A stretch of DNA of 64,000 nt, from the NCBI GenBank assembly GCA_026770575.1, contig MU657213.1, positions 572-64,571 on the forward strand, in the 5' to 3' direction. A program made the translations under genes and the position numbers. Shown one piece after another: positions 41,760 to 50,100 of this stretch (its first letter is position 1; the number at the start of each line of letters is the position of its first letter). Below the pieces are notes generated by a model. It made no database searches and was not told where the DNA came from. It saw only the letters and a list, made by a program, of their open reading frames with translations. Origin of the DNA: Pelagophyceae sp. CCMP2097. Taxonomy: Eukaryota; Sar; Pelagophyceae.

Positions 41760-43384
41760 ATGGCTTTCCTCTTGGTCCTCCTCTTCGCCGGCGGCGCGTG
41801 CGTTCACAGCGTTCGTCGGTGCGCGGGCCATCGCAACGCGTCCGTAGGGCCTTTGCGCCGACGCGGCCGCTCGCTGCGAAGCGTGCGGCATCCGTGTCCA
41901 AGTGGTCCTCTTGGAAGACCCCCCGAGCCGCCGGTGGACCCTATACCCGGCGCACGGGCCCGCTGCGTGCGCGGGTAGTGAACAGTCGCTTTCAGAGTTG
42001 GCAGCGTGTCGCCTGTGGAAGTTGAAGTCCGAGTGGCCTTTCTTGGACGCTCCGCGCAGGCGTCTCGGCGCAGTCGCTCGTGGCGCAGGCCGAGGCTTTG
42101 GCGTTCTCAAAGTACCACGGCCTCGGCAACGACTTCCTCCTCGTCGACAACCGCGAGTCGTCGGAGCCGAAAGTCTCGCCGGACGAGGCGGTGCGTCGTC
42201 TCGCCATTCCCGCGTCTTTTGCTGCGCGCGTTCACCCACCACCGCAGGCGAAGATGTGCGACCGCAACTTTGGCATCGGTGCTGACGGCGTCATCTTCGT
42301 GCTGCCTGGCAAGGACGGGGCCGACTTTACCATGCGGATCTACAACTCGGACTCCACCGAGTGCGTCCTCCGTCACACTGCGATAACGCAAGCTAGACCG
42401 GTCTCAAATTTAGGCCGGAGATGTGCGGCAACGGCATCCGGTGCATGGCGCGCTACCTCGACGCCGAGCTCAAAGTCAAGGGCCGCGAGATTGATGGCGG
42501 CAACGAGTATTTGATCTCCACGGGCGCCGGCCCCATCGTGCCCGTCGTCCGCGGCGACGGCCAGATCACCGTCGACATGGGCCCGCCGGAGCTGCGCGCC
42601 GAGAAGGTGCCGACGAAGTTGGCCGCAACGACGGCCGACGGCACGGCGCTTGCGTCTTCGTGTGTCGTGGCAGGCGAGACGTTTGAGACGACGTGCGTCA
42701 GCATGGGCAACCCGCACGCAATCACCTTTGTCGAAGACGTCGACGCCTTTGACCTGGCCAAGTTTGGCCGGCAAATGTCCGCGGGTGCGTCTGAGCCTCG
42801 ATTCGACAGAGGGTCTCGAGACGGTTCTGCGTAGGCCACCCCATGTTCCCGAAGAACGTCAACGCCGAGTTCGTCGAGTGCATCTCGCGCACGCACTTTA
42901 AGATGCGCGTCTGGGAGCGCGGTGCCGGGCCCACGCTCGCATGTGAGTCCGACGAGGGCGGGTCGCGCCAACGTCAGAGATGGCCGTCGACGCCCGTCGA
43001 AAGTATACGATAGGCGGCACGGGCGCGTGCGCCGTCGCCGTCGCCGCGATGCTGACCGGCCGCGCGGATCGCTCTTCCGCCGTGACAGTGTCGTGAGCCG
43101 CCCTTTCCCTTTTCACTGTGTCGTTTCGCGGCCCTTTCGCATCGGCGCCCACCCTCTGCGATCCAGGCTGCCCGGCGGCCCGCTCATCATCGAGTGGCGC
43201 GAGGCCGACGGCAAGATTTACATGACCGGCCCGGTAAGCTTTTGTGGAAGCTTGTGTGGAAACTTGTGTGGAAGCTTGTGTGGAAACTTGTGTGGAAGCT
43301 TTTGTGGCAACGTCTCGGACGCCGTGCCTGCAAACCCGCTCCGCCTAGGCCGAATTCGTCTTCAGCGGCGAGCTCCCTCGGTGA
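41760..43384 (+). CDS. dapF: Diaminopimelate epimerase, nuclear-encoded with leader peptide
   Basis: DapF converts LL- to meso-diaminopimelate in lysine synthesis. Exons for the enzyme: 42089-42190, 42248-42360, 42414-42784, 42835-42942, 43014-43092, 43167-43233 and 43349-43384 (292 codons, all phases consistent). A tentative first exon 41760-41810 gives a signal peptide ([17 protein letters not shown]) joined in phase to [16 protein letters not shown], as expected for targeting to a secondary plastid. Both active-site cysteines are present: MCGNGIR and LACGTGACA. Other family motifs: [41 protein letters not shown] and [12 protein letters not shown]. The length without leader is about 290 residues, normal for DapF. 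The last intron contains a 12-bp tandem repeat. Confidence 0.92.
43238..43308. repeat. 12-bp tandem repeat inside the last dapF intron
   Basis: About six copies of GTGTGGAARCTT alternate AAGCTT and AAACTT within the intron at 43234-43348. The repeat array starts 4-5 bp after the splice donor. Confidence 0.85.
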
Positions 43385-43639: not shown

Positions 43640-43935
43640 AACGGGCCGTCTCGAAACTGTCACGAGGACCGCCTCGAAGATATCGTTTCGGGACCGTATC
43701 GAGGCCGTCTCGAGGGCCGCCTCGAGGCCGTCTTCAGGACCGTCTCGACGGAACCGTCTCGAGGACGTCTCATGACCGCCTTGAGGCCGTCTTGAGTCGG
43801 CCTCGAGGCCGTCTCGGGGGCTGTCCCCTCTCGAGGACTGAGGCCATCTCGAGGTCGTCACGAGACCGTCTCGAGGCGGTCTTGGGGCCGTCCAGAGGCC
43901 GTCTCGAAAACCGTCTCGAGGGCCGTCGTGCCACG
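43640..43935. repeat. Degenerate GC-rich minisatellite
   Basis: Roughly 25 units of 10-13 bp with the core GAGGCCGTCTC / GACCGTCTCGAG lie between dapF and the channel gene. Many units pair into palindromes such as TCGAGGCCGTCTCGAG. No protein frame across it is convincing. The rest of 43385-44109 shows no gene. Confidence 0.75.
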
Positions 43936-44109
43936 ACTGAGGTGGAATGCACGTCGAGTCTGCAAAACCGCCGGCGCCTTCGACCATGCCCATCCCGACT
44001 TCGAACTTCCGGAAACTTGAATCGATGCGCCGGAATGAACGACGTGAATGAGCCTTCAAGTTTAGGAATTCCTACTCAGTGAAAGGATTTGATTGAGCTC
44101 TTACTTTAG

Positions 44110-47100
44110 CGACAGGGTCGGGGGTCGGACCGCCGTCCGTAACGCCCGGGCCGGGTGGGCTCGCGATGTGGGGGTCGCCAAAGTGGCGCAGCGAGCCGAG
44201 GAGGAGCGCGTCTCCGCGCCGCCGCCGCGGGCGCCGACGTGGCGCAAGCTGCCCAAGGGGCAGGACGTAGCCTCGCACGAGTTGAGCAGCCCGGGGCCGG
44301 GCGGCGCGGTGAGCATCGTCGCGCAGCCGGGCGGCTTTCAGTTCGAGGTGCACGCGCGCGTCGACGTGCACGTCGTCGCGCTCCTCGATGTCAAGGAGTC
44401 GGACAACACGTTCGAGGCGCAGCTGCGCGTGTCGCTCGAGTGGGAGGTGTCCGAGGCGCAGTGGGCCGACTTCGTCGACTTTTGGACGCGCGAGTACGTG
44501 CCCCGGCTCCGCCTCGTCTTCATAAACGGCGTGAATCGCGCCAACGTCCTCGACGCCGACCATGCCGACGGGCCGGACGAGCTAGGCACCGAGCTCGTCG
44601 ACGAGGATGGCGAGACGCTCCGCTTCTTCCGCCTGCAAAGGCGCGTCACCGAGACGTTCCGCCAGACGTTCGACCTGCGCGCCTTTCCGTTCGACATGCA
44701 GCACCTCGCCATCGAGCTGGAGACGGAACCCATCGTCGTCCTGGGCCGCACGTATAATCTTGTCCTCGAGCACCCGGGCGGCCAGGCGGGGTCCGAGGGC
44801 TGCCACGTCATCTGCGAGAACGCGGACCGCGTCGACGACGCCGCCTTCGAGACGCTCTACGCGCTCGACGGCGCCGAACTTGCCGGGCCGGGCGAGTTGC
44901 GGCGCAATGAGTACGTCGTCCTCCTCTTCGTCTCGCGCAACTTCCGGTCGACGCTCTGGAACATCATCGTCCCGACGTTGTTCATCGAGTTGCTGTCGTT
45001 CCTGACGTACTGGGTCAATCCGTGCTCGCTCGCGGACCGCGCGGCCGTGACGGTGACGCTCTTCCTCACCGCGGTGAGCTTCAAGACGTACACGGCGGAC
45101 AAGCTTTCGGCGGTGCCGTACCTCACGTCCGTGGAGAGCTACCTCATGGTCTGCTTCTTCATCCTCGCACTGCAGGGCGCTGCTCCTCATCCTCGCCGCC
45201 AAGTTCTGCAACCCCGACGGCATCGAGGGCCAGGTGATGCCCGGCCGCTACCGGCGCCACGACGAAGTCCCCGAGCCGTACGTCTCGGGCGAGCCGTACG
45301 TCTCGCCCGAGCCGTACTGGTCCGAGGAGGAGCGCACGCGGCTGCAACACGTCGTCGACTCGGCGGCGCTCATCGTGACCCTGGCCTTGATCGTCGGCTC
45401 TTTCCTCGTCTACATCCTCGGCGACTACGTGCGCCTCCAGCGCCGCTGCGCCGAGGTGCACCGCATGAAGGCGGCCGCCGAGTCGCGCGGCGAGGCGCAG
45501 CTCAGCAACTTTGCCTTTACGGCGTCGCGCCCCCCACTCACTGACGATGTAGAAAACCAGAATAGCGTTGCAACCACGGAGGCGGACCTTTACGAAGGCC
45601 CGCGTGCGGCGGCCGCCGCGCAGGCACGATACCGTGAGGCCATCGAATACTTCCGGCTGCAGCAGAGGACGCCGACGGTGGGCTACGAGAACAAGCGCAT
45701 CGACGCGCGCTTTACGGGCGCCGTCAGCGCGCACCACAGGCTGATTCCGGAGGATCGCGCGGAGCGCGCAGCGCGCCCGGCGGCGCACGCGGGCGCCGCG
45801 GACCGCGCGGCCATCATCGACGCCGGCACGGGCTATACGAAGCTGCTGATCGCGTCGTACATCGACAACGGCCCGGACGAGCCGCCCGACGTGGTCGTCA
45901 AAGACCACAGCACGTTCCAGCTCCCCGGCGAGGAAAATTCGCCGCTCCTCGGCCTCTGCCGCGACGGAGACACGGCGCACTTTGAGACGTGGCTCCTCGG
46001 CACGCTGCGGCCGGTACTCTGCGTCGACGTCCAGGCGCTCCTCGCGCAGCAGTCGGGCAAAGAGCTCCTCCGCCTCCTCGCCCGCCAGGATGCGGCCGAG
46101 GATGCGGATCTCGCCCTCGAGCACCGCCGCCTCGCGCTGGATGCGGCCCTCGGTTTCAAGATCCGCTTCGCGCCGGCGTCGAAGCGCCTCTTCGCGCCGG
46201 TGTCGAAGCGCCTCTTTTACGTCCACGACAAGGTCAAAGGTGTGCGCGACGCCGAGAACGCCGCGCTAAAAAAGGACATGGCCTGCCGCAGCCTCAACGG
46301 CAAGGGCTTCTCCGAAAAGCTCCTCTGCGCGCAGCTCCAGCGCTGCGCGGCCATCCTTGACCATGGCTGCGCGCACGTTTCGCTCGAAGTCGGCGACCGC
46401 GTCGCCGTCGCCGCCGCGCGGCCGCTGCGCTACGCCGTCGCCCGGGGCGGCGAGCCCATGCTCGTGTCGCGCGACACCGCCGCGACGTTTGCCGTCTGGC
46501 CCGGGGCCAAGGGCACCGTGTCCGCCGTGCTGGGCGTGGACCTCGTCGAGGTGGCCTGGGACGAGCCGCAGGGCGGCGTGGCGGCGACGGTGGTGCACCG
46601 CTACGACCGGTCCGATGCGGGCCTCTTCGGTTCGCTTTGCGCGCTGGCCGAGTGTCAGCTCACGTTTGCGCTCTTTGCCGACGCCGAGAACGACGAGTGG
46701 CGCGAGCTCAAGCTCGTGCTCGGCACGGGCGCCTGGTTCCGCCACGCGGACGCGGCGACGCGCGCGCCGTTCCTCGAAATGGTCTCGCGCCTGGAGAAGC
46801 ACTTCCAGCACTGCGAGATGATCTCCCTCACGGTGCTGGACGAGGCGCGCTTCGAGGACTTGAGCATCCAGTATGCGCACCAGTGCTGCGGCTACGAAGT
46901 GCCCGAAGCCAGCCTTGCCGTGGGCCTAGGCTCGACGCAGCTTGTGACCATCGAGGCGCCCGGCGTGGGCGCCGACGTCGTCTTTCGCGACGTGGGAGGC
47001 GAGCAACGCGCGACGGTCCTCGCGCGTGAGCAGAAGAAGTTTGTCACCGCGCGGGGCTACCAGCGCTTCACGTATCTATACTCGCTCCGCCTCTGCACCG

Positions 47101-47795
47101 CCTCCGGCGCCGACAGCGCCGACTCCAAAGGCGCCATCGTCCACAACGTCGAACTCTGCCGCATCCCCCTCTCGACGGCGGTGCGCGGCTTCGGCAGAAG
47201 GACGTCGCACATAATCGCGTCGGGCAACAAGCGCGGCATCGATACTTTCCGCGACTGCACCCGCACCGTCGACGAGCTGCAGGCGGTCTGGCGCGCCGAT
47301 GCCACGACGCGCGTGGCGCAGGCCATCCGCGACCAGGAGATCCCCGCGGGCGCGTTTCACTCCGTCTGCGCCATCTCCGCCTGCTTCTACGCCGCGACGG
47401 CGGCGGGCCTCGAGGTGTCGAAGGAGGGGCCGACGATGTTGACCGTCCGCGACGCGCGCCGCAAGTTCGAGGACGAGCTCGAAGAAATGCTTCGCCTCTG
47501 CCGCGAGGCCAAGAAGAAAAACCCGAAGCTGACGCCCTGGGAGATCCTGGGGCTGAAGGAGCACAAGGGCTTTCCTATGAACCTCTCGAACATCACGTAC
47601 CAGTTGGTGCTCTGCGACCTCCTCTTCGACGACGACACGGAGATGCACTTTTGCCACAACTGGATTATCCAGGGCAAGGAGTTCCGTACCACGTGGTCCT
47701 CGGGCTGGTTCCTCGAGTCCCTCATGCGGTCCAAGGCCGAGCTCCGCAACGCTCGGCCCAATACGATCTACAAAGGGTTTTGCGGCCTCGTCTAG
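44110..47795 (+). CDS. Pro-loop pentameric ligand-gated ion channel fused in frame to a CD39/apyrase-like NTPase domain
   Basis: The first part is a pentameric channel. The beta-sandwich ligand domain (about 44330-44930) carries FDLRAFPFDMQHLAIELE: the Pro-loop is there, but both cysteines of the Cys-loop are absent. Membrane segments: M1 NIIVPTLFIELLSFLTYW, M2 RAAVTVTLFLTAVSF, M3 SYLMVCFFILALQ-ALLLILAAKF, M4 ALIVTLALIVGSFLVYIL. Inside M3 the frame shifts by one base (about 45175), probably a sequencing error or a lesion. From M4 the frame stays open into a domain with GDA1/CD39 landmarks: IDAGTGYTKLLI, LVLGTGAWFR, AVGLGSTQL and a terminal YQLVLCDLLF...FRTTWSSGWFLES. A 200-residue insert contains a GAKGTVSAVLGVDLVEVAWD segment. 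No start codon was found; an upstream exon is needed before the acceptor at 44109. The C-terminus of such channels is extracellular, so an ectonucleotidase there is topologically sensible. Confidence 0.6.
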
Positions 47796-49072: not shown

Positions 49073-49855
49073 CTAGCACCCGTCGAGAATGATGCGCGCC
49101 TGTACCAAGCCCTGCGCCGCAGCGAGGCGCAACCAACGCAGGCCTTCCGCGTTCGACTTGGCCACCCCGGAGCCGTCTATAAACGCCAAGCCAAGAATCA
49201 ATTGCGCTTCAGGGAATCCTTGGTCGGCCGCGCGTCTGAACCACAGCACGGCAGTCTCTAAATTCTTTATCACACCGTCGCCGGCTTCGTATAAAAGACC
49301 CAGTTTCAGCTGACATCGTACGTGGCCCTGCGCGGCGGCGAGCTCGTACATCTGGGCCGCTCGCTGCAGACTCGGCTGGCGGGTCGCGTGGCTCACGTCG
49401 CCAAGCTCCTCCTGCGCGTCGGCGTTGCCTGCGTCGACGTGTTTCTGGATGCGGCGGCGCCACTCGGCGTCCGACTTGTGGGCCGGCGTCATGCAGAGCG
49501 GGCATCTCGTGTCGTACTGCCGGCACTTGACGAAGCATGGCGAGCACAAGGTCGTGCAGCAGCACGCGTTGAACGACGTCTTTCCACCTCCAAAGGTAAG
49601 CAAATCGAAACAAATGGCGCACGTCCCACCCCAGGCCGGCGCCACCTTGATCTTCTTCGAAGTAAGCGAGTCGAGGATGCGGTCCTGGAACTCTGCCGCG
49701 AGCTGCTTGCACTGCGCCTTGTGCCCGCGGTCGTACCAGTCGACGAGCTGGCACTTTTTGGAACAATAATGCCGGCATTTGCACTTGGTGCAGTGCTTGC
49801 CGCCCGCCTCGCCGCAGACGCAGCACGGCTTTCGAGTGATCGGCGGGTCCTCCAT
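49073..49855 (-). CDS. MYND-RING-Sel1 protein, paralogue 4 (260 aa)
   Basis: The shortest paralogue. MYND (KPCCVCGEAGGKHC, CKCRHYCSKKCQLVDW), RING-like cluster (CAICFDLLTFGGG, NACCCTTLCSPC, RCPLC), then about three Sel1 repeats (SLQRAAQMYELAAAQG, NLETAVLWFRRAADQG, SNAEGLRWLRLAAAQG). The linker between MYND and RING is about 60 residues shorter than in paralogue 1. The start at 49855 (MEDPPITRKPCC) is set by the conserved opening; the open frame continues upstream through the leader and its intron, which is not coding. It shares a promoter region with the LOG-family gene on the other strand. Confidence 0.87.
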   Translation of the reverse strand: MEDPPITRKPCCVCGEAGGKHCTKCKCRHYCSKKCQLVDWYDRGHKAQCKQLAAEFQDRILDSLTSKKIKVAPAWGGTCAICFDLLTFGGGKTSFNACCCTTLCSPCFVKCRQYDTRCPLCMTPAHKSDAEWRRRIQKHVDAGNADAQEELGDVSHATRQPSLQRAAQMYELAAAQGHVRCQLKLGLLYEAGDGVIKNLETAVLWFRRAADQGFPEAQLILGLAFIDGSGVAKSNAEGLRWLRLAAAQGLVQARIILDGC

Positions 49856-50000
49856 CGCGTCGCGGACGGCCGTCCGTCGATTTGCCTTTGCGCTGCTCGT
49901 TTGGTACCTGCAGACGAGCCCCTCGAGGCGAAGTCGGTACAGTTGTGTTTTGGAACAACGTACCGGGCTGGGTGCTCCCGAGCGCGCGAGGACGCGGCGG
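49856..50000 (-). promoter_or_regulatory. Conserved 5' leader of MYND-RING-Sel1 gene 4 with UTR intron
   Basis: On the minus strand an exon ending CTCGGGAGCACCCAGCCCG is followed by an intron at 49963-49908 (GTACGT...TGCAG), then an exon opening GTACCAAACGAGCAGCGC. The AGAGCACTC box is replaced here by AAAGGCAAATCG, so the box has decayed while the exon ends and intron position remain. Confidence 0.55.
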
Positions 50001-50100
50001 CGCGGCGCGGCGATAAAGGCGAGGTTTCGCCAAACGAATGTGCAAGGCAAGGGTCACTTTTCGGCGACGTCTACCCTCAAAACACCGTGCCGGCGGCACG

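Follow-up and report, generated by a model that had tools for sequence, protein, structure and literature searches.

A predicted pentameric channel subunit joined to an NTPDase/PPX-fold tail in pelagophytes

We analyzed a stretch of 64,000 nucleotides from Pelagophyceae sp. CCMP2097 (contig MU657213.1; hereafter the window), in which a pentameric ligand-gated channel had been proposed to read into an apyrase-like domain. The locus consists of two overlapping open frames on the + strand, at 44093-45544 and 45078-47795. The first frame covers the N-terminal domain, the membrane helices M1 and M2, and M3 up to its middle. The second frame, of 905 codons, takes in the rest of M3, then M4, a linker, and a tail of 666 residues that carries four apyrase-like motifs. 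This bears out the original prediction that the frame of M4 stays open into a domain with apyrase landmarks: all four motifs are there, and M4 is in the same frame. The rest of the predicted channel, from the N-terminal domain to the middle of M3, lies in the other frame. In 200 dinucleotide-Markov sequences that were modelled on 44093-47795 (same length, six frames), the longest stop-free run was 572 codons (median 308), which rules out a chance open frame of 905 codons at 45078-47795.

The genome also contains a paralogue on contig C8, where the channel, the linker, and the tail share one unbroken frame of 1288 codons. From residue 55 on, the translated C8 paralogue has the same sequence as P0001, a 1234-aa annotated protein from Pelagophyceae sp. 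CCMP2097. DNA similarity between the window and C8 starts at 44239. Based on open frames and phmmer matches, 44240..45175, read in the frame of 44093-45544, covers the channel as far as the middle of M3 (an N-terminal domain of the ligand-binding type, M1, M2, and half of M3); then 45180..47795 encodes the end of M3, the M3-M4 loop, M4, the linker, and the tail, in a single frame to the stop codon. Between these parts, at about 45175 (45175..45179), the DNA alignment shows a one-base difference that changes the reading frame inside M3 (45131..45209, placed by comparison with C8), so the window copy as assembled is frame-interrupted. The alignment has 12 gaps: 8 are multiples of three, one is the one-base difference in M3, two are adjacent and sum to 102 bases in the poorly alignable linker, and one is the first aligned base. 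Because the frame is otherwise preserved, the difference in M3 appears to be either a recent lesion or a mistake in the assembly, and the window copy is, on this alignment, a frame-interrupted paralogue of a channel-tail family. We do not favor a programmed frameshift or a small intron at 45175: apart from the one base, the DNA of C8 and the window is collinear at this point, and the intact relatives do without either.

The annotation includes a third paralogue, P0002, of 1247 aa. When we searched proteins with the channel part, 5 of the 7993 scored candidates were hits at E <= 10: P0001, P0002, P0004, P0005, and P0006 (a Pelagomonas calceolata protein). (Candidates were limited to lengths of about 708-2254 aa, so short tail-less channels could not turn up.) In full-length alignments with P0001, P0002 is 76% identical, P0004 is 38% identical, and P0005 and P0006 are 35% identical each. 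All five are intact and have the channel followed by the tail, in at least two named pelagophytes, so the order recurs in related genomes, as had been suggested as a check. Another protein search returned P0001 and P0002 and missed P0004, P0005, and P0006; absence from that search says little.

Could the locus be two neighboring genes, or an artefact of annotation read-through? The window copy alone can be read that way, given its interrupted frame and an in-frame ATG at 45465. A separate gene had been argued against because no in-frame ATG was thought to lie close to the NTPase domain; this argument fails, as there are in-frame ATGs at 45237 and 45465, between M3 and the NTPase motifs. We reject two genes or read-through as highly improbable because the C8 paralogue is uninterrupted, because five intact proteins show this order too, and because of the linker. 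Within the conserved linker segment AIEYFRLQQRTPTVGYENKRI (45639..45701), five residues (A525, F529, R530, Y540, and N542 in P0001 numbering) are the same in all five intact proteins, a pattern that would be difficult to account for if the junction were not translated. As a weaker point, a search with the tail returned only P0001 and P0003 (702 aa), but it missed P0002 as well as P0004, P0005, and P0006; it may well have overlooked tails that stand alone, whose absence says little. Judging from the sequences, the fusion of channel and tail is almost certainly real. The idea of a single polypeptide thus stands for the C8 paralogue and the five intact proteins, and not for the frame-interrupted window copy.

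The upstream part resembles pentameric channels. With phmmer against PDB, the best hits were GABA-A beta subunits (E 8e-11), and GLIC/ELIC-type chains aligned over longer stretches; a five-row profile matched solved channels at E 5.6e-11. The window copy scored 28.1 bits against Neur_chan_memb (PF02932; cut-off 28.1) in a six-frame search, which is over the cut-off, and 26.4 bits in a protein scan, which is under it. Among the intact proteins, P0001 was over (31.5 bits) and P0002 (27.9), P0004 (24.6), P0005 (20.1), and P0006 (14.9) were under. TIGR00860 LIC matched down to 2.8e-12, yet below its own cut-off. Pfam scans of the window copy and its relatives gave no match to Neur_chan_LBD. So, among the three families proposed for profile searches, Neur_chan_memb was found, and Neur_chan_LBD and GDA1_CD39 (see below) went unmatched.

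Anchors for M1 to M4 have the spacing of a channel in 5/5 intact proteins, and a low-confidence full-length model has four long helices in this region. A hydropathy scan made M1, M3, and M4 visible in all five, and M2 only in P0005 and P0006. In the window, M1 is at 44948..45016 (from phmmer matches, with bounds by eye), the pore helix M2 is at 45041..45091, and M4 is at 45354..45419, placed from the relatives' hydropathy and in the frame of the tail. In all five intact proteins, M2 starts at a conserved Arg that is preceded by Asp (ADR), and position 9' is Leu. In the usual -1'/9' numbering, these two features are the pattern of cation channels. The N-terminal domain is less clear: phmmer alignments to GLIC-type chains run from residue 89-92 on, and most of the model there has a predicted local distance difference test score (pLDDT) below 50. 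The Pro-loop region TETFRQTFDLRAFPFDMQ (44648..44701), read from the sequence and its aligned relatives, has no Cys pair: by eye, both Cys-loop positions hold residues other than Cys in the window copy, P0001, P0002, P0004, P0005, and P0006.

To assign the tail (45795..47792 in the window), we relied on a structure model of the C8 copy, which is 87% identical. In structure searches, including Foldseek, the best matches of this model were NTPDases, in agreement with the apyrase/CD39-like domain of the original prediction. The motifs also resemble the apyrase conserved regions (ACRs) of NTPDases. ACR1-like IDAGTGYTKL is at 45816..45845, with a Tyr in the window copy where the other five sequences have Glu. 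ACR2-like LGTGAWFR is at 46719..46742, ACR3-like LDEARFEDLSIQYAH is at 46836..46880, ACR4-like VGLGSTQL is at 46920..46943, and ACR5-like TTWSSGWFL is at 47688..47714; ACR2 is placed by motif alignment and the last three by their register in hhalign. We think that the tail very probably has an NTPDase/PPX fold, based on the model. The fusion, its conservation, and this fold class were computed, the fold class from a model of middling confidence.

Several results weigh against this picture. GDA1_CD39 (PF01150) had no match at E <= 1 in the window copy or its relatives, nor at E <= 5. A profile of the tail found no significant chain in PDB; nine distinct sequences at E 0.56-1.8 were taken as chance. 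The C8 tail model, from six rows, has a mean pLDDT of just 60.6 and a predicted template modelling score of 0.57; the full-length AlphaFold model, at 46.6, is too poor to use. Foldseek superpositions of the tail model are poor (among the three best, TM-scores of 0.23-0.36 and root-mean-square deviations of 13.5-20.8), and by Z there is little between NTPDases and PPX/GppA. Aligning the tail with a canonical NTPDase from the same genome by hhalign put ACR2 to ACR5 in register, at a probability of only 0.14% (E 0.42), and the register of the catalytic residues rests on this low-scoring alignment plus the motifs. Finally, the ratio of nonsynonymous to synonymous substitution rates (dN/dS) between the window and C8 copies is 0.87 over 658 tail codons, as compared to 0.45 over 343 channel codons. 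It is 0.66 over 81 M3-M4 codons and 0.70 over 101 linker codons.

The mid-tail is nearly identical in the two copies (178/180 residues), a sign of gene conversion that makes the tail ratio difficult to interpret. Relative to columns that are invariant in P0002, P0004, P0005, and P0006, the window copy departs at 14/110 positions in the tail and 8/123 in the channel part, and the C8 copy at 8/110 and 4/123. At the DNA level, 45847-46836 and 47260-47709 differ by 0-6% from C8, and 46837-47259, between them, differs by 15-35%. Also, P0003 joins a P0002-like half to a P0001-like half. These patterns suggest gene conversion or assembly chimeras. The window copy has short tandem duplications at 45270-45317 and 46166-46216 (18-base and 24-base units), which coincide with 39-base and 24-base in-frame insertions in the comparison with C8.

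Would the tail be an active enzyme? Across the six aligned sequences, the Asp of the ACR1 DXG motif, the ACR3 Glu (in the hhalign register), the ACR4 Ser and Gln, and the ACR5 Trp are all kept (6/6). The ACR3 Glu is the catalytic residue in NTPDases. But the position that aligns with the Asp of the ACR4 DXG motif is Ala in 4/6 and Ser in 2/6, and PMC12489842 states that both DXG Asp residues contact the metal in every productive crystal complex of an NTPDase. Because the residue at this second metal-binding position is Ala or Ser, the nucleotide-degrading activity in the original prediction is unproven. As the ACR4 Asp is lost while the ACR3 Glu and the ACR4 Ser and Gln are kept, we consider that the tail more probably acts as a sensor, weakly active or altered in its catalysis, than as a full apyrase.

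If the tail is neither enzyme nor sensor, it might be a catalytically dead domain for assembly or anchoring, in a channel that needs no nucleotide. Losing the ACR4 Asp would fit this, as would the lack of sequence similarity to real NTPDases in the profile search. However, the five intact proteins are all identical at 102 tail columns, and many of these (by eye) are in the ACR-like motifs, as expected for a ligand cleft that has been kept. We view a dead tail as quite improbable.

Another explanation is a plasma-membrane channel whose extracellular, active apyrase destroys the channel's own nucleotide signal at the receptor. In canonical pentameric channels, both ends are extracellular, and the fold of the tail model and the kept ACR residues would suit such an enzyme. 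Loss of the ACR4 Asp argues against it, but one of three canonical NTPDases in the genome (on C151) also lacks this Asp and has Glu instead; the other two have Asp. The tails of P0001, P0002, and P0004 contain 4, 5, and 4 N-glycosylation sequons, above the means for shuffled sequences (1.0, 1.7, and 1.4), which speaks against a cytosolic tail; P0005 and P0006 contain just 1 and 0. Also, the placement of the C-terminus outside was assumed from canonical channels, and the N-termini may not fit with it. A hydrophobic, signal-peptide-like N-terminal stretch is present in 0/5 intact proteins and in 3/3 canonical NTPDases of the same genome, by simple hydropathy with starts from gene models or, for the NTPDases, picked by us from open frames. 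(In the intact proteins, the N-terminus lies 24 to 38 residues ahead of the first Arg that they share.) Overall, an extracellular active apyrase seems unlikely.

The channel could also be inside-out, with the N-terminal domain and the tail in the cytosol, where the tail, minus one metal ligand, would sense a nucleotide or phosphate and gate the pore. This reading is suggested by the apparent lack of a signal peptide, by the M3-M4 loop, which is net acidic in 4/5 proteins (P0002 is net +1), and by the 30 residues past M4, which are net basic in 4/5 (P0006 is neutral). Against a cytosolic tail, besides the sequons in three of the tails, canonical channels also carry basic residues before M1. Sequons are absent from the N-terminal domain in 5/5 proteins, and shuffled sequences would have just 0.5-1.2. 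We consider the inside-out arrangement doubtful.

Both building blocks are also found separately in the genome. A tail-less channel gene on C4 (381294-384737) has a frame that stops soon after M4; it matches Neur_chan_memb at 27.6 bits, just under the cut-off, with one TAG within the matched stretch. Canonical GDA1_CD39 domains, as in ordinary NTPDases, are present at at least three loci, on C151, C53, and C18, with several exons on C151 and C53; by eye, their N-termini are signal-peptide-like. Matches to the fused tail are only on C50, C8, and C144. The match on C144 (1501-1626) is a 42-residue fragment, 69% identical, and appears to be the remnant of another copy. To look for an origin of the tail in viruses or prokaryotes, we also scanned viral and genome contigs with two short patterns each, and confirmed 0 relatives from 56 and 78 pattern matches, respectively; the window's own genome records may be left out of these scans.

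Between ACR1 and ACR2 of the window copy, 46392-46600 (GDRVAV...VEVAWDEPQGG) may be a small beta-barrel insert; Foldseek weakly listed Sm-like, tudor, and CAP-Gly domains for the tail model. Upstream of the channel gene are tandem repeats at 43694-43927 and 43236-43307, with an 11-base unit CCGTCTCGAGG and a 12-base unit AAGCTTGTGTGG, and a diaminopimelate-epimerase-like gene in pieces (42026-43250, + strand; by eye). Downstream, at 49073-50053 on the - strand, is a MYND-finger gene with Sel1-like repeats (by eye).

We propose that pelagophytes carry a conserved family of about 1170-1250 residues, with a Cys-less pentameric channel subunit, a conserved linker, and an NTPDase/PPX-fold domain. 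We think that this explanation is probably right as a whole. For its mechanism, we infer the ligand, the coupling, the ion selectivity, and the membrane side. Five subunits would form one channel, with an acidic residue of the cation type beside M2. The cleft of the tail would bind a nucleotide or another phosphorylated ligand, its two lobes would close as in NTPDases, and the movement would reach the pore via the linker and the helix after M4. We offer such ligand-coupled gating tentatively. The channel may sense or destroy nucleotides by itself. With members in at least two named pelagophytes, the family offers a system in which to study the coupling of such channels to nucleotide or phosphate status and to ask whether protist members keep the usual topology of the superfamily.

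Each part is of a known kind. The channel part is like the Cys-less (Pro-loop) channels of protists and prokaryotes, such as GLIC and ELIC (PMC4795631), in the order of M1 to M4, in its FPFD-type Pro-loop, and in having no Cys pair. The sequence match to GLIC and ELIC covers M1-M3 and is weaker over the N-terminal domain. Unlike GLIC and ELIC, the family has about 750 more residues past M4, mostly the NTPDase-fold domain, and by hydropathy its N-terminus lacks a signal-peptide-like stretch. As compared to GDA1/CD39 NTPDases (such as CD39, NTPDase2, and legume apyrases), the tail is below Pfam detection, has lost the ACR4 DXG Asp, and is fused to a channel; also, ACR1 and ACR2 are about 285 residues apart, versus about 80 in the NTPDase gene on C151. 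PPX/GppA proteins align over fewer residues of the tail model (264-293, versus 296-330 for most NTPDases, among the matches listed), and TTWSSGWFL resembles ACR5 of NTPDases in the hhalign register. In our searches of the open-access literature, no title or abstract described a channel of the nicotinic/GABA superfamily with a C-terminal enzyme-fold domain, in line with the original statement that no such fusion was known; as far as we could see, it is the union on one chain that is new in this superfamily. Analogues include TRPM2, with its NUDT9-like tail, and TRPM6/7, which are channels with C-terminal enzyme-like domains, and the nucleotide domain of TRPM2 can act as a sensor. The pelagophyte family shares this arrangement with them, although both the channel and the enzyme fold are unrelated.
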